Source: an uncultured Hyphomicrobiales bacterium
GTDB lineage: Bacteria; Pseudomonadota; Alphaproteobacteria; Rhizobiales; Beijerinckiaceae
Direction: 5' to 3'
DNA: 64,000 bases
Assembly (NCBI GenBank): GCA_903931945.1
Contig: CAIZEI010000058.1
Location: 1-64,000 of the forward strand
Shown: piece after piece, positions 23,871 to 35,945 of the stretch
How the letters are laid out: the number at the start of each line of letters is the position of its first letter
Numbering within the stretch: the stretch's first letter is position 1
The notes under the pieces: generated by a model
The model's database searches: none
Told to the model about the DNA's origin: nothing
Seen by the model: the letters and a program-made list of their open reading frames with translations, nothing else
Made by a program: the position numbers and the translations under genes

Positions 23871-24018
23871 TTGCGCAACACTGCCCAGGCTTGATCGCCG
23901 AATCGCCGATTCGCCAAGTTTAGAGATGTTTTGTTGACACAACATTAACCTTCGCCGACGCCTAACGTCGTTACGGTCGTTTTTCAGGATCGCGGATTGT
24001 CGGACTGGAGGTCGCGAC

Positions 24019-24228
24019 ATGGGGGAGTTGGTAGCTTTTAAAACGCGTGAAGGCGTTCGCAGGCGCCCGGCGGACATTGTTCCGGGTGGCGCAGAAATAT
24101 TGTTCTTCCTTGGCGTTCGTTACGAACGCCAGGACAATGCATTGAAAAAAGTCGTCAAGAAGTCAGGCCACGGTCGCCCGCATGGCACCGACCGCCCGAC
24201 AAGCCCAGGCCGCAAGCGCCGCGCCTGA
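24019..24228 (+). CDS. Small basic protein of unknown function
   Basis: 69 aa starting MGELVAFKTREGVRRRP, with GGAGG 8 nt upstream supporting the start. The middle GGAEILFFLGVRYER is hydrophobic-ordered and the C-terminus is Lys/Arg-rich (KKVVKKSGHGRPHG...RKRRA). Divergent from DUF2336. Not recognised; could bind nucleic acid. Confidence 0.5.
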   Translation: MGELVAFKTREGVRRRPADIVPGGAEILFFLGVRYERQDNALKKVVKKSGHGRPHGTDRPTSPGRKRRA

Positions 24229-24308
24229 GCGGGCTAGAGTTCGGGCAGGATTTGCTGCTGTCGAAAGACAGGGCTGAAAATTCAGCGCCAAAACGCCGGG
24301 CGCGTGTT

Positions 24309-24333
24309 CCTTCTCCCGCGTGGCGGGAGAAGG
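24309..24333. repeat. Dispersed palindromic repeat, CTTCTCCC family, copy 2
   Basis: Perfect 11-bp stem CCTTCTCCCGC / GCGGGAGAAGG with a 3-nt loop. GATGAGGGC (24358) and its inverted copy GCCCTCATCC (24411) lie just to the right, the same motif that flanks copy 1 at 13650. Together they look like fragments of one dispersed element lying 3' of the secreted-protein gene. Confidence 0.7.
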
Positions 24334-24422
24334 CGCCGGTTTCGTCAGGAAATGACGGATGAGGGCGGCGACAGATGTACAACTCTTTCGATTTTGCGGG
24401 CGTTTTAAGGCCCTCATCCAGC

Positions 24423-25115
24423 CTATCGGCCACCGTCTTCCGATTCTCGGGAGAAGGATTCGCGCGCCGCGATCCGCGAATATGCCGCCCGCAACGCCGC
24501 CGAAATCGCCTTGCGACGAACGATCACAACGCCAAGCGCTAAAGCGAGCCACGACAGGGTTCCCGCGCCGGGAATGGGGGCGGGTGACGCAGCGGTCACG
24601 GTCAGCGTTCCGGCTGCTGAAGTGAATGGCGACCCCGGCCCCCCAGGCGCCCCATTATAATTGTTGCCCCCCGCCGTCGCCTGATAATTAGTCGTGCTGT
24701 TGGTGCCAACAAAAATAGCCTCTTGCTGGGCGCCAACTGTGAACCCAATGCCATAGGTGTCGACATAGCATGCTGGACATGTTGGATTGCTTCCACTTCC
24801 GGATGGGTAGAACAACTTGTTGTCGATGCAAAAGCCATAGGTGCAATAATTAGGCGCCGTTATCAGGCCTGTGATCGCCCCGTTGGCTGAGTTTGCGCCC
24901 GATTCGCCGGAGACCGTTCCCGTAATGCCGGTGACGATGTAAGGCGCGGAGCCGGCGCCAGTTGTGAGCGTGCCAATAATACTGACAGTTCCGTCAGTAA
25001 AAGTGAAATTATAGAGCGTTGCGAAAGCTGCGCTGGTGCCTTGCCCGACCAACGCGCTCAATGCCAGCGCCGCCGAAAACAGCCATCGCACTGCCGAAGA
25101 TTTCAAACCGCCCAT
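24423..25115 (-). CDS. Secreted protein with PGAGTLSW-type C-terminal anchor, paralog 1
   Basis: 230 aa: signal peptide (about 1-31, ending SAAFA), then a mature start with YNFTFTDGTVSIIGTL, a Gly/Thr/Ser-rich body with two close cysteine pairs (CTYGFC, CPACY), and the tail APIPGAGTLSWLALALG followed by VVIVRRK. That tail (short motif, hydrophobic segment, basic cluster) is organised like PEP-CTERM exosortase signals but the motif differs, and about 28 residues continue after the basic cluster. Paralogs at 30091 and 31101. An 11-G run lies 45 nt upstream of the start. Confidence 0.75.
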   Translation of the reverse strand: MGGLKSSAVRWLFSAALALSALVGQGTSAAFATLYNFTFTDGTVSIIGTLTTGAGSAPYIVTGITGTVSGESGANSANGAITGLITAPNYCTYGFCIDNKLFYPSGSGSNPTCPACYVDTYGIGFTVGAQQEAIFVGTNSTTNYQATAGGNNYNGAPGGPGSPFTSAAGTLTVTAASPAPIPGAGTLSWLALALGVVIVRRKAISAALRAAYSRIAARESFSRESEDGGR

Positions 25116-25159
25116 TGCACGCCCCTGAAGTCAGCCCTTGCGAAGTCCTAACATGGCGA

Positions 25160-25170
25160 GGGGGGGGGGG
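25160..25170. repeat. Homopolymeric tract of 11 G upstream of the secreted-protein gene
   Basis: Eleven consecutive G on the + strand (C on the transcribed-gene strand), 45 nt before the start codon of paralog 1, in the promoter-proximal region. Tracts of this length are slippage-prone. The rest of 25116-25341 contains no gene I can support. Confidence 0.85.
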
Positions 25171-25341
25171 AGCAAGGCGAAAGCGTCTGTCCCGCAGGGC
25201 AATCAGGTGAGGAAGAGGAGCAGCGTCCTTTACCCGATTGGCATGGTCCGTCCGGCATCGAAATTTCTTTGCCGGATTGGTCACAGATGGGAACCCCACC
25301 TCGCCCTGCGCGAAGCGTCAATGCGAACGCTTTTTCGACGT

Positions 25342-25992
25342 CTATGGAGTCAGGGCGCTGTTCAGGCCGCAATTGATCGCTGCGACGCGGCGTTGTGCAG
25401 CGATCCGGTCGCTGGGCCGCTCTGCAAGCGAGCGAAACAGAACAAACCCCAGCGGCGTTGGCGAGACGATGCGCAATTCCTGCGGCAGTTCATCCTCGCT
25501 GTCATTGGCTTCGACATCGTCGCGCTGTTGTTCCAGAAACAACAGCACCTCAAGACGCCCGCGCGTCGCGCTACGGTCGGTCATCGAATAAAAGATCTGA
25601 CCATAACGGGAATGAAACGACATCAGCATCAAGGATTCCGGAGTCAGGCTGGCGCGCACGCGCAGCGGCCCCTGCTTCAGATCGAACCGACAGACGCCCC
25701 GGATCAGGGCGGGATCGTCAACCCATTCGCTGGACGGCAGACCGAGAAGCCCGGCCAGTCCCTTATGGCCGCCGGCAGCTGCGGGCGTGGCCTCGATGGC
25801 GGGCAGGAGCGTTGTGCGATGCAGGGGCGCCAGCGCCGCCATGCGCGAAAAGGCGTCATGCGGCGCAAGCCCAGGCATCATGAGAATCGACGTCAAATGC
25901 GTGACCCCCGCGATGACGGCGATGGCGAGCGCCCATAGGGTCAGGCGTGTCAGTCGATCGGAAATGGTTTCCGCTGTATTGCGCGCGCTCAT
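25342..25992 (-). CDS. DUF1254 domain-containing membrane-anchored protein
   Basis: 216 aa. One N-terminal transmembrane helix (LTLWALAIAVIAGVTHLTSILMMP), then APHDAFSRMAAL and a DUF1254-like body (RFDLKQGPLRVRASLTPESLMLMSFHSRYGQ-type, cut here). In alphaproteobacteria this family is regularly paired with a DUF1214 gene, which is exactly the case here, with a 4-nt overlap. Function unknown; envelope location. Confidence 0.75.
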   Translation of the reverse strand: MSARNTAETISDRLTRLTLWALAIAVIAGVTHLTSILMMPGLAPHDAFSRMAALAPLHRTTLLPAIEATPAAAGGHKGLAGLLGLPSSEWVDDPALIRGVCRFDLKQGPLRVRASLTPESLMLMSFHSRYGQIFYSMTDRSATRGRLEVLLFLEQQRDDVEANDSEDELPQELRIVSPTPLGFVLFRSLAERPSDRIAAQRRVAAINCGLNSALTP

Positions 25993-26567
25993 GCGCAGGC
26001 TCCGCGCCGGATCGAGGGCATCTGGCTGGCGTCGAGTGTGAAGGCCGAGGCGCTGGCGGGCGTGTCATAGAGGCGCAGAACCAGCCTGAAGGGTTCGCCC
26101 CTGACGACCGGCAGCCAGTTGCCGGGCCGCGCAGTCCCCGCAACGGCGATGGCGAAAGCGCCTTTGTCGTCGCGAATGATTTCTGACGATGTGAATTCGT
26201 AGCGTCGCGTGCTTGTGTCGAGCAGGGCGCCGGTGGGACTGGTGGCGATCAGGGTCCAGAACCGCGTCGGCGGCACTGCGCCGCGGACGATATAGTCGCA
26301 GCGAGAATCGAACCTGGTTCCGGAATCGTCGGCGCTCGCGACAAAGGTCAGCCCTTCCGTCAGGCCCAACGGCGTATCGCCGCTGCGCGCCCGCTGCGCG
26401 CGCGTATAGGGATCGACGTCCGCCGCTCCCTCCTTCGGCCAGCCGGTCCAGGCGCCGGCTTGCACGGCGCCGAATTCAGGTCCGCCGCTGACTGTCTCCA
26501 GAGTGACAGTCAGGCCAAGCGCCACGCCCAGGATGACGGCAATCATGGATTTGAAAACAAGAACCAA
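25989..26567 (-). CDS. DUF1214 domain-containing protein
   Basis: 192 aa with an N-terminal membrane segment (MIAVILGVALGLTVTLETV). Features of DUF1214: WTGWPKEGAADVDPYTRAQRAR, RFWTLIATSPTGALLDT, and a C-terminal GNWLPVVRGEPFRLVLRLYD motif. First gene of the DUF1214-DUF1254 pair, 80 nt downstream of the PBP1A gene end on the same strand side of the window. Function unknown. Confidence 0.85.
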   Translation of the reverse strand: MVLVFKSMIAVILGVALGLTVTLETVSGGPEFGAVQAGAWTGWPKEGAADVDPYTRAQRARSGDTPLGLTEGLTFVASADDSGTRFDSRCDYIVRGAVPPTRFWTLIATSPTGALLDTSTRRYEFTSSEIIRDDKGAFAIAVAGTARPGNWLPVVRGEPFRLVLRLYDTPASASAFTLDASQMPSIRRGACA

Positions 26568-26647
26568 GTTGGCTGGCCCGGCGATACGGAAACAGGGCCT
26601 CCCGTTTGCACGCTTGGCGCGCGGGGCGCAAGGGCGAGGCGTGGTTT

Positions 26648-28915
26648 TCAGTCAAGTCCGGTATGGCGCGTCAATGTCCGCACGTCGGTGTCGATCCGCG
26701 CATAGGAGTTGACCGGAGGCCCGAGCGTTTCCGCCCGCTTGCCGTTGCTCGCCGCGCCGATCAACTCGCCAATGCCCTGCAAGGCCTCGCCGGTCTTCTT
26801 CGAGAGCGTTGCCGGGCGTTGCGCGACAGTTATGTCGCTCGATGCTGCGGCGTTCGCCCCCGGAGAGCCCTTGGCCGGCGGCGTATCGTCGACGCCATAG
26901 AGGTTCTTCAGTTCGATGCCCTGATGCGCATAGACCATGATGTCATGCCAGGCCTGCGCGGGCAGCTGTCCGCCCTGCAATCCATTGGTCGGCGAATTGT
27001 CATCGTTGCCGAACCAGACAGAGCCAACATAATTGCCGGTAAAGCCATTGAACCAGGCGTTGCGCGATTCATTGGTCGTGCCGGTCTTGCCGGCGACGAC
27101 GACGCCGTCAAGCGCAGCGCGCTTGCCGGTGCCCGCAATGACCACGTATTTCAGGAGCGTGTTGTTCACCTCCGCAATCTTGTCGGCAGGGATCACCTGC
27201 TTGTAGGCTGGCCCGTCGCGATCGCGGCGGTATACGATCTCGTCGCGCGAATTGCGGATCTCGACCGCAGCATAGGCCGGCGCCCATTTGCCGCCATTGG
27301 CGAAGGCGGCGTTGGCGGACACCATATCGACCATCTTCACATCGTCCGCGCCCAGCGGCAGGGATGGGGTGTCTTCGAGCGGCGTATGCACGACGCCCAT
27401 GGCGCGCGCCGTCTGGACGATGGTGGCGCGTCCGGCTTTGGCGGCGATCCAGTCGCCGGGATATTTGTTGGCCGGGAATTGCGCGCGACCGATCTGGATG
27501 GACAGCCAGGCGGCGACCGTGTTCAGCGATTTTTCCAGCGCTACAACCATGGGCAACAGGCCCGCGCCAGCGCCGCCAAAATTGTGCGGACACCAGTTGC
27601 CGATGCAGAGCGGCGATCCGTTGACCATGGTGTTGGCGTGGAATTTCCCGGTCAGAACGGCGCTGAGATAGACGAATGGCTTGAACGAGGAGCCAGGCTG
27701 GCGCGCAGCGTCGAGGGCGCGGTTGAACTGACTGCGGCCATAATCGCGCCCGCCGACAACGGCGTGAACAAGACCGGCGGGGTCGGCGATCATGGCGGCG
27801 GCCTGTGAGGCGTGTTTTTCCTTGCCATACTGACGCAGGGCGTCCTCAATGGTGGTTTCCGCCCAGCGCTGAAGGTTGACATCGAGCCCGGTGCGCACGG
27901 TCAGCACGCGGTCATTGCCAAACTTGTTCTGCTCGGCAAGATCCAGAATTTCGCGATAGGCAAAATCGAGATACCAGTCCGGGCTCGAATCGCGCCGACG
28001 ATCAATGGGCGTCGCCGGATTGCGACGGGCGGCGTAGACCTGCCCCTCGGTGAGATAGCCGGCGTCAACGAGGTTTGACAAAACGTCATTGGCGCGGGCG
28101 CGCGCGGCGGGCAGATTGATATGCGGCGCATATTTGGTCGGCGCCTTGAACAGGCCGGCGAGCATGGCGGCCTCGGCAAGCGTGACGTCGCGGACATTTT
28201 TCCCAAAATAGAATTCGGAGGCGGCCTGCACGCCATAAGTGCCTGCGCCCATATAGGCGCGATCGAAATAGAGTTTCAGAATCTCGCGTTTGGGCAGGCG
28301 CGCCTCCAGCCACATCGCCAGAAAGGCTTCCTTGATCTTGCGTTCGATGGAGCGCTCGTTGGAGAGGAACAGGTTTTTGGCGAGCTGTTGCGTCAATGTC
28401 GAACCGCCCTGCACAACGCCGGATGAGCGGGCGTTGACGGTCAGCGCCCGCAGCGTGCCGACGGGATCGATGCCGTAATGATCGAAGAAGCGCCGGTCTT
28501 CCGTCGCGAGCAGCGCTTCGATGAGATAATCGGGATATTGCTCCAGCGGCACGGCATCGTCGTGCTTGATGCCGCGCCGGCCGACTTCCGCGCCATAGCG
28601 GTCGAGAAAGGTGACGGCGATGTCCTGCTTTTTCAGCCAGTCCTCGTCCGAGGTTTGCTGGAAGGCGCCCTGCGCCAGCGCCAGCAGCAGGCACATGCCG
28701 CCAAGGCCAAGGGTCAAGCCCTCGCAGGCAAGCTCCACCAGCGCTTTCCTGAAGCCGCCGACGTGAAACCGGTCCATGAACGTGGAAAAATCTTCATAGG
28801 CGCGGCGGGCCGATTCGCCGCTGTCATAGATGGACGAATTCAGCCACGCATCGAAGCCCCAGAAGGAGCGTACAATGCGCTTCCAAAGCGCTGACTGGGT
28901 CCACTGCTCAAACAT
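26648..28915 (-). CDS. Class A penicillin-binding protein (PBP1A family)
   Basis: 755-aa bifunctional peptidoglycan synthase. Cytoplasmic N-terminus, one transmembrane helix (about 65-84), GT51 glycosyltransferase domain with [12 protein letters not shown] (139-150) and [12 protein letters not shown] (170-181), and a transpeptidase domain with SSFK (Ser409), SLN (463-465) and KTGT (610-613), all intact. The C-terminal tail is low-complexity ([14 protein letters not shown]). A near-consensus CtrA-like sequence lies 35-50 nt before the start. Confidence 0.95.
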
Positions 28916-28949
28916 GGCGTCCTGCTGCCCCGGCCTCGGGCCGGTTTCT

Positions 28950-28964
28950 TTAACACAAACCTAA
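28950..28964. promoter_or_regulatory. Near-consensus CtrA-like box between PBP1A and ycgN
   Basis: TTAA-CACAAAC-CTAA matches 7 of 8 positions of TTAA-N7-TTAA. It lies 35 nt before the PBP1A start on the other strand, in the 297-nt divergent region 28916-29212. Pattern match only. Confidence 0.3.
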
Positions 28965-29212
28965 CGCGCTTGACGATATCGGGACGGACGCGTTGTGATA
29001 TGAACGACGGGCAAGGCGCGTGCCGGAGGCGGTTGCGCCAAAACGGGACAATTGGGCGGCTTTTCCGGGGTCCTTGCAAACGCTGGTCCCAATGCCGGGT
29101 CGCGCGCCGGGGTTCGCGCCAGGCGGCAAAAGCGGCTAGACAGTCCATTCGGGCAGAAGCGCCAGATTGTTGTCGCGCGAAGCGGAAACGCCTCCAGAGG
29201 AACCGGGACCCA

Positions 29213-29713
29213 ATGCAGAGCGACGATCCCAAGGCCGAGGCGGCAAAACCCTTCTGGCGAACCAAGAGGCTGGACGAGATGAACCCCGTGGAATGGGAGA
29301 GTCTGTGCGACGGCTGCGGGCGCTGTTGCCTCGTCAAGCTGATCGACGAGGACACGGAGGAGGTCCATTTCACAGATATCGGCTGCAAATTGTTCAACGC
29401 CGAAACCTGCGCCTGCAAGGATTACCCCAACCGGCAGAAGAAAGTGCCCGATTGCATCAAGCTGACGCCCCGTGAGGTCAAGCGGATTCCATGGCTGCCG
29501 CCCTCCTGCGCCTATCGGCTGGTGGCCGAGGGCAAGGATTTGCAATGGTGGCATCCCCTGAAATCGGGCCGCCCCGAGACCGTGCATGAAGCAGGCGTTT
29601 CAGCGCGGGGCCGGGTCGGCGCGATGGAGGGCAAAATCCGCCAGCGTGATTATGTCGACCGGCTCGTGACATGGCCGGGGGAGTTTCCGAAGCCGAAGAA
29701 GCCGAGAGCCTAG
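29213..29713 (+). CDS. YcgN family cysteine-cluster protein
   Basis: 166 aa of the UPF0260/YcgN family, built around the cysteine cluster [10 protein letters not shown] (residues about 33-42) with further cysteines in [15 protein letters not shown] and PSCAYRL, consistent with metal or Fe-S binding. Start at [11 protein letters not shown], matching the family's usual length; an open frame continues upstream. Biochemical function unknown. Confidence 0.85.
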
Positions 29714-30090
29714 GGGCAGGTTTGCAATTCATGTCTATGCGGCGACGGCTTCTGCCGCTTTTACCAGGTTGCCATGCGCGTGGCCGTTTGCTGAACTCTC
29801 ATCGTCGCCAATCGACGCGACACCCCTGACTCCGGACCGGCGCAGAATTTTCCACGCGGAAAGCATACGAAAGACGCGAATGCTTCAACTGCGGACGCGC
29901 TAGACGGGTTCGGCGGCTGGTCGGGTTCGGCGGCCATGCGCCAATTGCGAAAATTCGCACCAGAACATTGCCAGGCTCAATTGCAAGCTTGACCATGCGG
30001 CGCCAGCGACATAATGAAAGGGTTTGCTCAAGTGTGCTTCCGCTGCCGAAAGAGACGGAGTGCAATCTGACTGACGAGTGGGAGTATCTC
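29714..30090. other. Non-coding region carrying upstream repeat copy 1
   Basis: 377 nt between ycgN and secreted paralog 2 without a supportable gene. Most of its middle (29817-29943) is the first copy of a duplicated sequence; the last part must hold the promoter and ribosome site (GGAG, 8 nt before the ATG) of the next gene. Confidence 0.6.
29817..29943 (+). repeat. Duplicated upstream module, copy 1
   Basis: About 127 bp matching 30790-30916 at an offset of 973 in the core, including more than 40 consecutive identical bases beginning GCGGAAAGCATACGAAAGAC. It ends about 148 nt before the start of secreted paralog 2. Confidence 0.85.
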
Positions 30091-30684
30091 ATGCTGCAGC
30101 GTTTGGATCGATTTATCGTTTTGTTCGTTCTTGCCTTTTCGATTCAATTCGGTTTTGCAGCGCGGCAAGCCTCCGCCCAATCGGTTTACAATTTTCAGTT
30201 TGCATCATCAATCGGGTCCGGTTCAATCTACCTGATCCTTGGCAGTGGCTCCGGCAATCCAGTCACCGGTGCGTTCGGCGGAACGGGCATCATGACGAGT
30301 GCTGCATTAAGCACGAGCAATAATCCATTCGGTCTTGGCACCGCCCCGGCTCTTAATTCGGTGACGACGGCGCCTTTTTTTGGCCAGTTTTCGACTACAG
30401 TATATTTAAACACGGGCACATATACATATGCGCTAAACGGTGGCGCATCCGACAATATTTACAAACATGATGACTCACAAAGTATAGACACCTGGGTCGT
30501 CGGCGCGCAAGGGATCCCCTTCACCATGGAGACGATGACCTACGCCGGGCCCGCCCCTGTTCCCGGCGCGGGAACCCTGTCATGGCTCGTTTTGGGGCTT
30601 GGCATTGTGATCATTCGTCGCAAGACCGTTTCAGCGGCGGTGCGTTCGGCCTATGCGCGGATCGCCGGGCGCGCATCGGCCTGA
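30091..30684 (+). CDS. Secreted protein with PGAGTLSW-type C-terminal anchor, paralog 2
   Basis: 197 aa. Signal peptide (about 1-28, ending ARQASAQ), mature start SVYNFQFASSIGSGSIYLI, Gly/Thr/Asn-rich body without cysteine in the visible stretch, then PAPVPGAGTLSWLVLGLG, IVIIRRK and a 20-residue tail (TVSAAVRSAYARIAGRASA) very close to that of paralog 1, including at DNA level. Start at MLQRLDRF is supported by GGAG. Probably exported and then held at or released from the membrane by the C-terminal helix. Confidence 0.75.
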   Translation: MLQRLDRFIVLFVLAFSIQFGFAARQASAQSVYNFQFASSIGSGSIYLILGSGSGNPVTGAFGGTGIMTSAALSTSNNPFGLGTAPALNSVTTAPFFGQFSTTVYLNTGTYTYALNGGASDNIYKHDDSQSIDTWVVGAQGIPFTMETMTYAGPAPVPGAGTLSWLVLGLGIVIIRRKTVSAAVRSAYARIAGRASA

Positions 30685-31100
30685 GCCAAATTCCTCGCGA
30701 CCTTTCGCGATCTCCGCATGTCGTGTGGCGACTTTTCAGGGTCATCAATCGACGAAGCCGGCGGAAAAATCCCGGCAGTTTGCATGGTCGCGACACCTCC
30801 GATATCGGACTGGCGCAGAATTTTCCGCGCGGAAAGCATACGAAAGACGCGAATGCTTCAACTGCGGACGCGCAGAGCGGGTTTGGCGGCTGGGCGGGTT
30901 CGGCGGCGGTGCGCCAAACAGTGACATTTGCGCAACCCCGTCGGGCAAATTTCCAGCATGCGATGCGTCGACCCCTTAAAATTTTGGCCTGGACTTGACA
31001 ATACGACATTGATCCGATCTGAATGAATTTGGTCAAGCAATTTATCATATTTTAACTCTTTGCTGGATCGCACTTACGTGGCGTGTCGCAAGGAGTTGTT
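30685..31100. other. Non-coding region carrying upstream repeat copy 2
   Basis: 416 nt between paralogs 2 and 3. Contains the second copy of the duplicated module (30790-30916) and, further right, an AT-rich stretch (about 31015-31060) likely to be the promoter of paralog 3. No gene supported. Confidence 0.6.
30790..30916 (+). repeat. Duplicated upstream module, copy 2
   Basis: Second copy of the module at 29817-29943. It ends about 185 nt before the start of secreted paralog 3, so both copies sit at a similar distance upstream of related genes. Confidence 0.85.
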
Positions 31101-31706
31101 ATGTCATCTCGTTTTGTTCGATTGTTCGCATCTGCTGGCTTCGCCCTTTTGCTCCAGATTGGCTTTGGTGGTCAGCGAGCCTCTGCTACGGCCTATAATT
31201 TCAGCTTTAATGGCGGGGCTTTTGGTGTAATTTCAGGTGTTTTCCAAATCACCGGGACAACGGTAACGTCAGCATCGGGGAATACGACTGGGAGCGCTCT
31301 AGGGGGGAACGGAGCGGTCTCACTGGCGGGTTCTGCCGGAGCCAGCGGAATTTTTGGCCGAGCAATCTCCTACACATTGCAAACGGTGGGCGCCACTGGC
31401 CCTTATTTCCCAAACGACCAGGGCCCTGTCCCACGGGAGTTTGATATAAATTCGGGAAGTGCTGTGTTCGCGCTTTTCATGAACGGCGTGGGTGGATCCG
31501 ATACAATAACGAACGGAACGGGCGGTAACCCCTTAGGCAGCGAGTCGCTGACATCCGCTGCCGCCCCCGCCCCCGTTCCCGGCGCAGGAACGCTGTCCTG
31601 GCTTGCTCTCGCTCTTGGCGGGTTGTGGATCAAGCGCAGGACTTTGTCGGGATTGGCAAGCACGCTCACAGGCAGGTTCTCGCGCAGGGCCAGCGCGAAG
31701 TCATAA
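31101..31706 (+). CDS. Secreted protein with PGAGTLSW-type C-terminal anchor, paralog 3
   Basis: 201 aa; start at MSSRFVRLF supported by AAGGAG 5 nt upstream. Signal peptide ends ASATA, mature start YNFSFNGGAFGVISGVFQ echoes the other paralogs. The C-terminus reads PAPVPGAGTLSWLALALG, then GLWIKRR and a divergent 23-residue tail (TLSGLASTLTGRFSRRASAK). The different tail may come from a 3'-end rearrangement into unrelated sequence. Confidence 0.72.
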   Translation: MSSRFVRLFASAGFALLLQIGFGGQRASATAYNFSFNGGAFGVISGVFQITGTTVTSASGNTTGSALGGNGAVSLAGSAGASGIFGRAISYTLQTVGATGPYFPNDQGPVPREFDINSGSAVFALFMNGVGGSDTITNGTGGNPLGSESLTSAAAPAPVPGAGTLSWLALALGGLWIKRRTLSGLASTLTGRFSRRASAKS

Positions 31707-32042
31707 TCGGCGGGAGCGCCCGGCCCGTCCAGCGCCGCACACAGGCCCCTTGCCGGGGAGCGTATGACCGCTCCAGCCGCCAAAATGTCCCTCCGAGCGC
31801 ACAGGACGTTGTCATTTCGGTCGCCTTCTCCCGCGCACTGGAGACGGCGCGCGCACCGCAGCGATTTCGCGTCGCTGATTCAGACATAGTCTTCAAGAAC
31901 TGAAAACCCTTGCGCTGCAACGATTGACCAAAATTCTCAATACGCTTGCCTTCGCAAAATCCGTAACTCCCCCCAAACAAATCGCCCCGCGCCGGCAATC
32001 CGGCGCGGGGCGAACAAAGCTGCAAAACAAGTCTGAAAAACC
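31707..32042. other. Non-coding region 3' of paralog 3
   Basis: 336 nt. Short open frames on both strands have no start site or motif I can support. The right end contains the GC-rich hairpin at 31982-32013, which belongs to the PsiF-like gene on the minus strand. Confidence 0.5.
31982..32013 (-). terminator. Strong hairpin, probable terminator of the PsiF-like gene
   Basis: Perfect 14-bp stem (TCGCCCCGCGCCGG with its inverted copy) and a CAAT loop, 30 nt past the stop of the leftward PsiF-like gene. The following minus-strand sequence TTTGTTTGGG is only moderately T-rich, so termination is likely but not certain. Confidence 0.6.
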
Positions 32043-32318
32043 TTACATCTTGCCTTCTTTGCAGGCCTCGCGGAACTTCTTGCGCTCCTTGCCATGCAGG
32101 CCCTTCGCGTCGGCGTCGGCCGAGCATTTCTTGGACATGGCGGCCTTTTCAGCTGCGCCCATTTTCATCGGGGCGGCGGCGGGCGCCGCAGCAGGAGCAG
32201 CCGGGGCCGCAGCAGCCGGCGCGGCAGGCTTGGCGGGCGCCGGGGTCTGCGCGAAGGACGCAGAAGCGGAGACCAGGCCGAACAGGGCGACGAGGGCGAG
32301 CGTCGGGATCTTTTTCAT
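32043..32318 (-). CDS. PsiF-repeat periplasmic protein
   Basis: 91 aa. Signal peptide MKKIPTLALVALFGLVSASA...FAQ, an Ala/Pro-rich linker, and a C-terminal PsiF-type repeat (MSKKCSADADAKGLHGKERK, then FREACK) with two cysteines that likely pair. PsiF is named as a phosphate-starvation-induced protein in E. coli, with no known biochemical role. Only one repeat is present here. Confidence 0.75.
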   Translation of the reverse strand: MKKIPTLALVALFGLVSASASFAQTPAPAKPAAPAAAAPAAPAAAPAAAPMKMGAAEKAAMSKKCSADADAKGLHGKERKKFREACKEGKM

Positions 32319-32653
32319 AAACAGACTCCTGAAAAGGGATTTCGGGCTGAAACCCTTACCCTTTCTGTCTAGCTTGTGTGGCGAAAATTGGGAAGGGCAG
32401 GCGCCGCCGGGTCCGATATGCGTCGGCCTGTTTCGGCGCAGTTCGCAATGGGATCGATCCGGGCCGGTCAAATCCTGTCATTCGAAAGACTGGGGGGAGG
32501 ACCGCGAGCCAGGGATGTGGTGACGCCAAATTAACCTGGTTATCCTTTGATACCCAGCAATCGACAGTATCGTCGAAAAACTGCGGTATGCCGGCAAGAC
32601 ATTGTTCATCGGTCGGGAAGAATCTGGAGGCCGGCAAGAAACAGGAGTTAGCC

Positions 32654-33908: not shown

Positions 33909-34241
33909 ATGAAATCCGTTCCAGCCGCCGTTTTGACGCCCCGGGGCGCTCATCCGGTCTTGAAAGCCCTGCTGCTTGCGGGCTCCGCGCTGACGCTCGG
34001 TCCGCCGCCGGCCCTCGCCGATGGTATCGCGAATGCGCCGCAGACCTGCCAGAAAATCCAGCAGAACTGTCTTGCGCGCGTCGCCAAAGGCGCCGCCACC
34101 CGGGCGAAGGCGCCTCAGGACGGCGTCGACCGGCCGCATCTGACCGAGGCCGACTGTTCCGCCTCCTATGCGCAGGCGCAGACGACAGGCGTCTGGCCGG
34201 AACACTTGCCGTATAATTTTGCGGCGCAGTGCACCAACTGA
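33909..34241 (+). CDS. Secreted protein of unknown function
   Basis: 110 aa with signal peptide (hydrophobic LKALLLAGSALTLGPPPALA, about 18-38) and AAGGA upstream of the ATG. The mature part has four cysteines (TCQKIQQNC, DCSAS, QCTN), suggesting two disulfides. It lies 59 nt behind the TadG-like gene. Not recognised. Confidence 0.55.
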   Translation: MKSVPAAVLTPRGAHPVLKALLLAGSALTLGPPPALADGIANAPQTCQKIQQNCLARVAKGAATRAKAPQDGVDRPHLTEADCSASYAQAQTTGVWPEHLPYNFAAQCTN

Positions 34242-34305
34242 TTGTAACGCGGTCGCGCGCTTCGATACGGCGGGCATCCGCCAGCGTCGCATTTCCTGCG
34301 GCGCC

Positions 34306-35472
34306 ATGCTAACCGCAATCATGGGCGCGCCAACCTTCATCGAACTGTTTGCCGGCGGCGGCATGGCCCGCGCCGGGCTGGGGCCGGGCTGGCGCTGCCT
34401 GTTCGCCAATGATATCGACGCCAGCAAAGGCGAAAGCTATGTCGCCAACTGGGGCGCGGGCGAGTTCCGGCCGGGCGATATCCACAAACTCCGCGCAGAT
34501 CATATTCCCGGCATCGCCGATCTCGCATGGGCGTCTTTTCCCTGTCAGGACCTGTCGCTGGCGGGCGCCGGGGCCGGGCTGCGCGGGGGACGTTCCGGCG
34601 CGTTTTTCGGTCTGCGCGATCTCATCGCAGGGCTGGCGGGGGAAAATCGGGCGCCCAGAAGTCTTGTGCTTGAGAATGTCATTGGCGCCTTGACGTCGAA
34701 TGGCGGCGCGGATTTTCGCACGCTCGCAGAAGAGCTTTCCGCGCTGGGATATCGGTTCGGCGGCATGACAATCGACGCCGCGCTGTTTCTGCCGCAGTCC
34801 AGACCGCGCCTGTTTGTCGTTGCTGTGCGCAGGGGTCTGGAAATCCCCACTTCGTTGCGCCGGGATCGCGGCGAAACCAGATGGACAGGAGGGCCGTTGC
34901 AACGCGCGTTTGACGCATTGCCGGAATCGTTGCGCACCGATTGGATATGGTGGGCGTTGCCGACGCCGGATACGCCGAACCTGCGTCTGAAAGATGTCAT
35001 TGAAGAGCAGCCCGCCGATGTTTCCTGGCATTCGGACAGCGAAACCGCGCGGCTTCTGTCATTGATGGCGCCGGGCCAGCGCGCCAGAGTTGAGACCCTG
35101 GCGCAATCGGGCCAAAGGCATGTCGGCGGCGTCTATCGGCGCACGCGTGTTGAAAACGGACAGAAAGTTCAGCGCGCCGAAGCGCGGTTCGATGGACTGG
35201 CCGGTTGCTTGCGCACGCCGGGCGGCGGCTCCAGCCGGCAATTCATCATCGAGATCGCCTGCGCTCGCATTCGCACGCGTCTTTTGTCGGGACGTGAAGC
35301 GGCGGTTTTGATGGGCTTGCCGCCGGACTATCGTCTGCCCCGGCGATATAGCCAGACCTGTCATCTGCTCGGCGATGGCGTTGCGGCGCCTGTCGTTCGC
35401 CATCTCGCGCATCATCTGCTTGAACCGCTGATTGTCGCCAATTCCCGGTTGCAGCAGGTTCGCAAGCCATGA
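34306..35472 (+). CDS. DNA (cytosine-5-)-methyltransferase
   Basis: 388 aa; start at ATG 34306 or 34321. Motif I FIELFAGGGMARAGLG, motif IV SFPCQDLSLAG with catalytic Cys at about residue 80, motif VI LVLENV, motif VIII QSRPRLFVV, and C-terminal motifs around LLSGREAAVLMGLP and LGDGVAAPVV. This is a complete C5 methylase of the Dcm/type II class. The variable target-recognition region (about 200-310) does not let me name the site. It overlaps the vsr gene by 4 nt; no restriction endonuclease gene is adjacent. Confidence 0.92.
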   Translation: MLTAIMGAPTFIELFAGGGMARAGLGPGWRCLFANDIDASKGESYVANWGAGEFRPGDIHKLRADHIPGIADLAWASFPCQDLSLAGAGAGLRGGRSGAFFGLRDLIAGLAGENRAPRSLVLENVIGALTSNGGADFRTLAEELSALGYRFGGMTIDAALFLPQSRPRLFVVAVRRGLEIPTSLRRDRGETRWTGGPLQRAFDALPESLRTDWIWWALPTPDTPNLRLKDVIEEQPADVSWHSDSETARLLSLMAPGQRARVETLAQSGQRHVGGVYRRTRVENGQKVQRAEARFDGLAGCLRTPGGGSSRQFIIEIACARIRTRLLSGREAAVLMGLPPDYRLPRRYSQTCHLLGDGVAAPVVRHLAHHLLEPLIVANSRLQQVRKP

Positions 35473-35945
35473 ACCGATCCGCCATCATGCGCGCGGTGCC
35501 CTCGCGCAATACATCGGCGGAACTCAAGGTCCGCGCCATTCTTCGCACGATCATGACAGGCTATCGGCTGCATCGATCTGACATTCCAGGCAAGCCCGAT
35601 ATTGCATTCGTCGGGCGGCGGCTTGCGATATTTGTGCATGGCTGTTTCTGGCATGGTCATGATTGCAAACGCGGCGCGCGCGCGCCGAAAACGAATGCGG
35701 AATATTGGCGCGCCAAAATCGAGCGCAATGTTGCCAGGGACGCGCTGCATCAGACCGCATTGCGCGAACAGGGCTGGCGCGCGCTGACGATCTGGGAGTG
35801 CGAATTATCCGACGCCGACTTGGTCGCTGTAAAATTGCGGTCCTTTATCGCGGCGCCAGAAACCTCTGTGTCGCAACGAGAGTCTCGCGCGCTCGCGCCG
35901 CGACCGAAAGCCCGGCGAGGCGAGCGCTCGGGGCTTCAACGCTGA
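35469..35945 (+). CDS. vsr: Very short patch repair endonuclease
   Basis: Vsr nicks at T:G mismatches arising from deaminated 5-methylcytosine. The 158-aa protein has MRAVPSRNTSAELKVR, LHRSDIPGKPDIAFVGRR (catalytic Asp in PGKPDI), IFVHGCFWHGHDCK and YWRAKIERNVARD, all typical. It is coupled to the cytosine methylase. The last 33 codons overlap the convergent gene at 35845 and diverge from family sequence, so the ancestral stop may have been earlier. Confidence 0.92.
   Translation: MNRSAIMRAVPSRNTSAELKVRAILRTIMTGYRLHRSDIPGKPDIAFVGRRLAIFVHGCFWHGHDCKRGARAPKTNAEYWRAKIERNVARDALHQTALREQGWRALTIWECELSDADLVAVKLRSFIAAPETSVSQRESRALAPRPKARRGERSGLQR

Follow-up and report, generated by a model that had tools for sequence, protein, structure and literature searches.

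An uncultured Hyphomicrobiales bacterium of the Beijerinckiaceae (assembly GCA_903931945.1) carries on the first 64,000 nucleotides of contig CAIZEI010000058.1, i.e. the whole stretch that was analysed and is called here the window, three genes for predicted exported proteins ending in the same C-terminal tail, which raises the question of whether this tail is a sorting signal and which enzyme reads it. Our analysis suggests that an exosortase-type C-terminal signal and an exosortase clade of its own probably make up a new pair, expanded and shuffled in the source species. This proposal follows from the tail itself, the selection acting on its motif, the unrelated bodies that bear it, its co-distribution with one enzyme clade, the linkage of enzyme and target in Labrys and the catalytic residues of the enzyme. 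An earlier reading of the same DNA without database searches (the sequence-only reading) had proposed a variant exosortase-type signal in a three-member family; the nature of the signal is still best read in that way, with an enzyme clade that co-occurs with it and processing as a putative step, whereas the family size and the expected constancy of target number were wrong.

Three putatively exported proteins with a common tail

The three open reading frames are confirmed with all the features formerly assigned to them, namely a signal-peptide-like start, a YNFxF mature start (YNFTF, YNFQF and YNFSF), a Gly/Thr/Ser-rich body and the tail. Protein 1 (P0003, 230 amino acids; 24423-25115) is encoded on the minus strand, which the sequence-only reading had left unstated; a signal-peptide-like start is followed by the mature start TLYNFTF, a Gly/Ser/Thr-rich body and a C-terminal signal (24426-24587, minus strand) consisting of SPAPIPGAGTLSWL, a helix, RRK and a 28-residue extension, the tail thus reading PAPIPGAGTLSWL..RRK plus 28 residues. 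Proteins 2 (P0001, 197 amino acids; 30091-30684, mature start SVYNFQF) and 3 (P0002, 201 amino acids; 31101-31706, mature start TAYNFSF) are encoded on the plus strand, with signals at 30547-30681 (PAPVPGAGTLSWL, helix, RRK and 19 further residues) and 31563-31703 (PAPVPGAGTLSWL, helix, KRR and 21 further residues), respectively. The consensus tail start is PAP(V/I)PGAGTLSWL, followed by a hydrophobic stretch and then RRK or KRR; from the 20-28 residues previously claimed past the basic cluster, the values 28 and 21 fit and 19 falls outside. With the full-length proteins none of the NCBIfam 20.0 models passed its cut-off and the Pfam scan listed no entry, P0003 had PDB matches at chance level only, and the structure prediction for P0001 was of low confidence (predicted local distance difference test, pLDDT, 39.4), only helices 2-29 and 160-195 being formed.

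A constrained motif on unrelated bodies

The source genome (5.03 Mb in 203 contigs, 98.5% complete, 4.8% contamination) holds many more of these tails than the window does, and far beyond chance, because a 44-amino-acid tail query (28 places, 27 with E <= 2.4e-4) and a 21-row tail profile, A2 (27 places at E <= 1e-3), each give 27 strong places. Once three double listings from overlapping loci were taken out, 24 tails with a complete motif remained, spread over 17 contigs, so that the supposed three members were an undercount set by the window edges. Their signature runs from PxPxPG through S(W/Y) and a hydrophobic helix to a basic triplet, beyond which lie 14-37 residues (median 19, net charge positive in 24/24); the order motif, transmembrane helix and basic cluster is kept in all 24, and N-R-K occupies the triplet positions in seven. 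Four subtypes can be told by the motif: (T/A)LSW in 13 tails, xYSW in 7, PLSY in 3 and LLSW in 1. By a rule-based check, 22 of the 24 proteins have a signal-peptide-like start in frame; of the other two, one is a frame at a contig edge and one an open frame of 69 codons whose tail is complete. Three further copies without the full motif (G000:C5:13504-13629, C5:24455-24565 and C170:21590-21703) have decayed and reflect turnover of the tail family. The plasmid searches gave no match.

The tails might be thought to be plain transmembrane anchors, alike through duplication and gene conversion and read by no enzyme, and the flanking DNA common among the tail genes does imply that copying has occurred. 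Codon comparisons argue otherwise. Among the 13 (T/A)LSW tails, synonymous differences per site (pS) are alike in the first 13 codons, i.e. the motif (0.49), in the helix (0.54) and in the extension (0.53), while nonsynonymous ones (pN) amount to 0.043, 0.318 and 0.282, giving ratios of 0.09, 0.59 and 0.53; for all 24 tails pN/pS is 0.30 in the motif and 0.71 in the helix, with a bootstrap of 0.31-0.53 for the ratio of the two. Such a low value at about 0.5 synonymous divergence indicates that selection, and not recent copying alone, maintains the motif, and the same divergence, together with the conserved motif, rules out that the tails are recent duplicates. Strong constraint is what recognition would produce and what a plain anchor would not need; as, in addition, the tail tracks one exosortase clade across three lineages (see below), we consider the anchor explanation improbable.

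The 24 complete tails sit on otherwise unrelated bodies. Twenty-one proteins could be divided into signal peptide, body and tail, and among them the pairwise identities of the three parts are uncorrelated (Spearman 0.05, 0.02 and 0.01). Single pairs illustrate this point: L018 and L021 agree in 95% of the tail and in 21% of the body, the pair L017 and L021 agrees in 96% of the signal peptide and in 33% of the body, and L005 and L017 have 63% of the body in common, yet tails of different subtypes. These comparisons indicate that signal peptide, body and tail have been shuffled independently among the tail genes of this genome. As regards homologues of the bodies, a profile of the L002/L009 body matched the source genome alone among 385 genomes of the class, and a second body profile, run on 61 genomes, found beyond the source genome a single fragment, at a contig edge of G310 from the same genus. 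In that genome, L069 (G310:C252, 3-305, minus strand) is an N-terminal half resembling tail-family bodies and truncated by the contig end.

A candidate cognate exosortase

No exosortase is encoded in the 64-kb window, as the sequence-only reading had stated, and a candidate cognate enzyme with an interrupted frame lies elsewhere in the genome, on contig C123 (G000:C123:24971-25870, minus strand; L093 12972-13871). It was found by a TIGR04178 search of ten genomes, which also gave matches near the tail genes of Labrys in three of three genomes. Scanned directly, its C-terminal (catalytic) half reaches 30.8 bits with PF09721 (cut-off 25.7); the zero matches of the first PF09721 search of the source genome were therefore a false negative of that search's first look, and other absences obtained by the same method, the rhombosortase one included, run the same risk. 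The first 164 codons match residues 12-148 of the enzyme of Labrys sp. WJW (E 4.6e-9) and the 134 codons after an in-frame TAA, which are open, match residues 150-275 (E 2e-19); these BLAST E-values, that of the partner protein below and those of the leave-one-out profile refer to sets of 12 proteins. The cysteine (GCAS), NWAR and HNGDG are all encoded after the TAA, and of six EpsH residues described as invariant (PMC1569441) the enzyme has five, with Cys-Ala-Ser in place of Cys-x-Gly.

In the source genome, Labrys WJW and G299, a relative from the source genus, a small-protein gene overlaps the end of the enzyme gene by four bases; the copy on C123 is open and its product is 25% identical to the partner of Labrys KNU-23 (E 2e-7). 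It may have a parallel in a cyanobacterium whose exoproteome is reported to change in an exosortase-dependent way and in which a protein gene directly follows that of the exosortase (PMC12188702). Near the C123 enzyme gene lie, among others, genes for a polysaccharide deacetylase and a GNAT-type acetyltransferase; near that of Labrys WJW (one of the three Labrys genomes being annotated) lie genes for two glycosyltransferases, a carbamoyltransferase and an epimerase. The enzyme gene is uninterrupted in each of the three Labrys genomes and lies 1.4 kb from a target. Enzymes of this clade matched general or foreign exosortase models only; the structure model of the Labrys enzyme is middling (64.9), and PDB searches found neither a similar fold (E <= 0.001) nor a similar sequence (E <= 1). 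C123 was also tested as contamination: in tetranucleotide composition it correlates with the window at 0.974, two blocks of the window giving 0.985 and 0.964; the test is weak because the metagenome-assembled genome (MAG) REEB362 reaches 0.958.

The tail follows one enzyme clade

Tails were scored on at most 24 candidates per genome in a sample of the order, 117 in the genus, 18 in the class and 150 in the comparison that included Labrys, REEB362 and G299, and weak tails elsewhere could thus have escaped notice. Within these limits, the order sample (297 genomes) has the tail in four, the source genome and three Labrys (Alphaproteobacteria, Hyphomicrobiales), i.e. Labrys sp. WJW, Labrys sp. 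KNU-23 and Labrys okinawensis, and the class sample (385 genomes) has it in the source genome only. None of 36 other genomes of the genus has it, several of them being less than 90% complete and the C-terminus of the G310 fragment lying off its contig. The Labrys genomes have two, two and one clear tails (a further match in KNU-23, at E 0.04, was left uncounted), which read PGPVPGTSTISYL...GRKK on a body different from those of the source genome and weakly resembling 'choice-of-anchor C'. REEB362, another Hyphomicrobiales genome, was picked by its enzyme alone and its single tail, PGPLPGGGLWSWL...RRRRR (E 1.7e-4), was found afterwards. Counted from position 25, the extensions are of 18-21 residues in four Labrys tails and of 27 in REEB362. 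The tail is thus not confined to three recent duplicates lacking a processing enzyme, the outcome that the sequence-only reading had set against itself, as it occurs in Labrys and REEB362 together with the exosortase clade.

The enzymes show the same distribution. With a profile built from source-genome and Labrys members, close enzymes (E < 1e-60) appear in the same four genomes of the order sample as the tails, five other genomes have remote ones (E 7e-9 to 2e-5), and the nearest relatives found for the C123 enzyme are those of the three Labrys genomes and REEB362. A leave-one-out hidden Markov model (HMM) of the three Labrys enzymes and REEB362, from which the source genome was excluded to avoid circularity, gives the C-terminal half of the C123 enzyme 78.6 bits and no more than 28.9 to any of 11 other exosortases, six of which come from the source genus; in a maximum-likelihood tree the five enzymes group together with support 100/99, the half-length row filling 42% of the columns. 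The tail is present in 5/5 genomes with this clade and in 0/11 compared genomes with other exosortases (six from the source genus, G299 being checked twice, and five from the order), which corresponds to a Fisher p of 2.3e-4 by genome and of 0.0027 with Labrys taken as one lineage, kinship among the 11 being ignored. The search for a co-occurring processing enzyme that the sequence-only reading had recommended therefore led to one exosortase clade in the same five genomes as the tails, whereas its other proposed check, for a constant number of targets per genome, gave one or two clear tails in Labrys and REEB362 and 24 in the source genome.

For rhombosortases, the target is described as lying close to its enzyme in genomes with few targets and away from it in those with many (PMC3237569). 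REEB362, with a single detected target, breaks such a rule because its tail gene is absent from the 11.8 kb around its enzyme. A simple tail screen beside other exosortases gave one different candidate, a protein of G297 in the source genus (L138:11329-12105, plus strand) that lies near a different exosortase and has another tail, PIPLGGVGGMVALLGMFALRR; with that enzyme it possibly makes up another enzyme-signal pair of this genus.

Weighing the proposed pair

Several points weigh against a dedicated enzyme-signal pair, beginning with the fact that its direct evidence is of sequence only. As regards the enzyme, the C123 frame scores 19.2 and 18.9 bits in two runs of TIGR04178, below the cut-off of 23, PF09721 has no match to the Labrys enzyme at E <= 1 and did match that of G299, and one in-frame TAA splits the C123 frame in the assembly. 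As regards co-distribution, the three Labrys genomes amount to a single lineage, the target bodies of REEB362 and Labrys are homologous (31%), so that their common tail is partly common descent, and profiles A7 and A8 include source-genome and Labrys members, which leaves REEB362 and the leave-one-out HMM as the independent evidence. As regards the tail, one bare tail reaches 15.7 bits with the GlyGly-CTERM model TIGR03501 (cut-off 15.5), the full-length protein scoring 12.6, and the basic cluster of the source-genome tails is not at the extreme C-terminus. Textbook exosortase signals have it at the very C-terminus; an ArtA substrate with its tripartite part away from the C-terminus has reportedly been found, and we therefore take the extreme position as typical, not defining.

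With the TAA in its frame the enzyme may or may not work in the source strain, since the stop could be an error of sequencing or assembly, a sign of decay or the divide in an enzyme made of two pieces. It is conceivable, if rather doubtful, that the source strain is losing the system, with the exosortase as a pseudogene and the 24 proteins staying unprocessed in the inner membrane. The stop codon inside the gene, the three tail remnants without a full motif and the 69-codon frame that has a complete tail and no signal peptide would all agree with decay; the open 134 codons past the TAA with all catalytic residues kept, the open overlapping partner gene and the still well conserved tail motif speak against it, as does the possibility of an error or of an enzyme in two pieces. 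This scenario disputes present function in the source strain only and is compatible with the tail as a sorting signal elsewhere.

The proposed pair can also be set against known systems. PEP-CTERM proteins with their exosortase (EpsH) are similar in the signal peptide, the motif-helix-basic tail, the many diverse bodies per genome, an enzyme with Cys, NxxR and HxxxG and the polysaccharide genes nearby (PMC1569441). Unlike them, the source tails extend 14-37 residues past the basic triplet, the enzyme has Cys-Ala-Ser for Cys-x-Gly and sigma-54 boxes are not enriched upstream of the tail genes (mean best score 5.00 vs 4.94 for shuffled DNA, 22/24 genes); the PEP motif is found in none of the 24 tails and no NCBIfam or Pfam PEP-CTERM model matched, which bears out the earlier statement that the motif differs from VPEP. 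PGF-CTERM with archaeosortase ArtA (PMC7157517) has Pro-Gly in the motif and an enzyme of a related superfamily in common with our system, from which it differs in being archaeal and in its PGF motif. MYXO-CTERM with myxosortase has a tripartite tail and dozens of targets per genome, and needs an invariant Cys in the motif (PMC11980579), a residue that 0/24 source tails have within their first 13 positions; the older MYXO-CTERM model TIGR03382 gave 16.9 bits (cut-off 15.85) on one bare tail.

GlyGly-CTERM with rhombosortase is alike in having a homologous tail on unrelated bodies and an enzyme-target spacing that goes with target number (PMC3237569); it is unlike our system in that its enzyme is a rhomboid-family serine protease, and its match to the source tails is marginal. 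That another protease, e.g. a rhombosortase, reads the tail could be argued from the bare-tail score just above the TIGR03501 cut-off and from the 9/21 bare tails that match this model at E <= 10 (best E 0.0042). The full-length protein falls below the cut-off, the gene linked to the Labrys target encodes an exosortase, and 0/46 genomes pass the cut-off of the rhombosortase model TIGR03902 in a search by the method that missed PF09721 in the source genome, where the best score (32.7 vs 84 bits) is comparable to those of the rhomboids of other genomes; this last result outweighs the small gain from the marginal GlyGly-CTERM scores, and makes a rhombosortase very improbable. Our literature search found neither a PGAG C-terminal signal with an exosortase nor a Labrys exosortase, an earlier naming in the 2012 archaeosortase/exosortase survey or in other papers being possible.

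Flanking DNA and neighbouring genes

A non-coding repeat of 134 nucleotides is present on the plus strand upstream of gene 2 (29811-29944) and, in a copy 87% identical, between genes 2 and 3 (30784-30917); related patches adjoin tail genes on other contigs. The DNA searched for them, i.e. the window and the enzyme locus of 19 kb, has matches only within or beside tail genes, which speaks against generic repeats. The search for RNA families over 24000-32500 of the window gave one sub-threshold match only. Gene 2 is adjoined by a CxxCxxCC-domain gene (PF03692; 28970-29713, plus strand), a 59% identical homologue of which adjoins the tail gene of REEB362. Further downstream, all on the plus strand, are a TadE/G-like gene (PF13400; 32378-33849), whose frame seems to run into an overlapping second open reading frame, possibly by a frameshift, and a C-5 cytosine methylase gene followed by a Vsr mismatch endonuclease gene (34168-35945).

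Proposed function and significance

Under the proposed pairing of signal and exosortase, the N-terminal signal peptide would export the protein and the tail helix would anchor it in the inner membrane. The PxPxPG..S(W/Y)L motif would face the periplasm, whereas the basic cluster and the 14-37 residues after it would stay in the cytoplasm. The cognate exosortase clade would then cut at or near the motif using Cys, Arg and His, and the body would be released or passed on to a partner, of the envelope or a polysaccharide. The source species would have enlarged the set of targets to 24 while signal peptides, bodies and tails were shuffled. It is tempting to speculate further that this exosortase clade, for which there is no model of its own, and its PxPxPG..S(W/Y)L signal are the chassis of a shuffled, species-private surface repertoire, in which the fixed motif lets one enzyme, perhaps made of two pieces with the catalytic residues on the second, process all 24 proteins; we regard this extended view as rather unlikely.

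To our knowledge, the action of bacterial exosortases on their substrates is so far known mainly by inference. The enzyme-signal pair proposed here would add to the exosortase systems of the Hyphomicrobiales, and Labrys offers a small version of it, with an uninterrupted enzyme, one adjoining target and at most one other clear target, which makes it convenient for learning how these enzymes act. The expansion in a single species, the shuffling of modules, the putative cytoplasmic extension and the interrupted enzyme go beyond a routine addition to the known systems, and the 24-gene family would show a sorting tail passing between bodies inside one genome.

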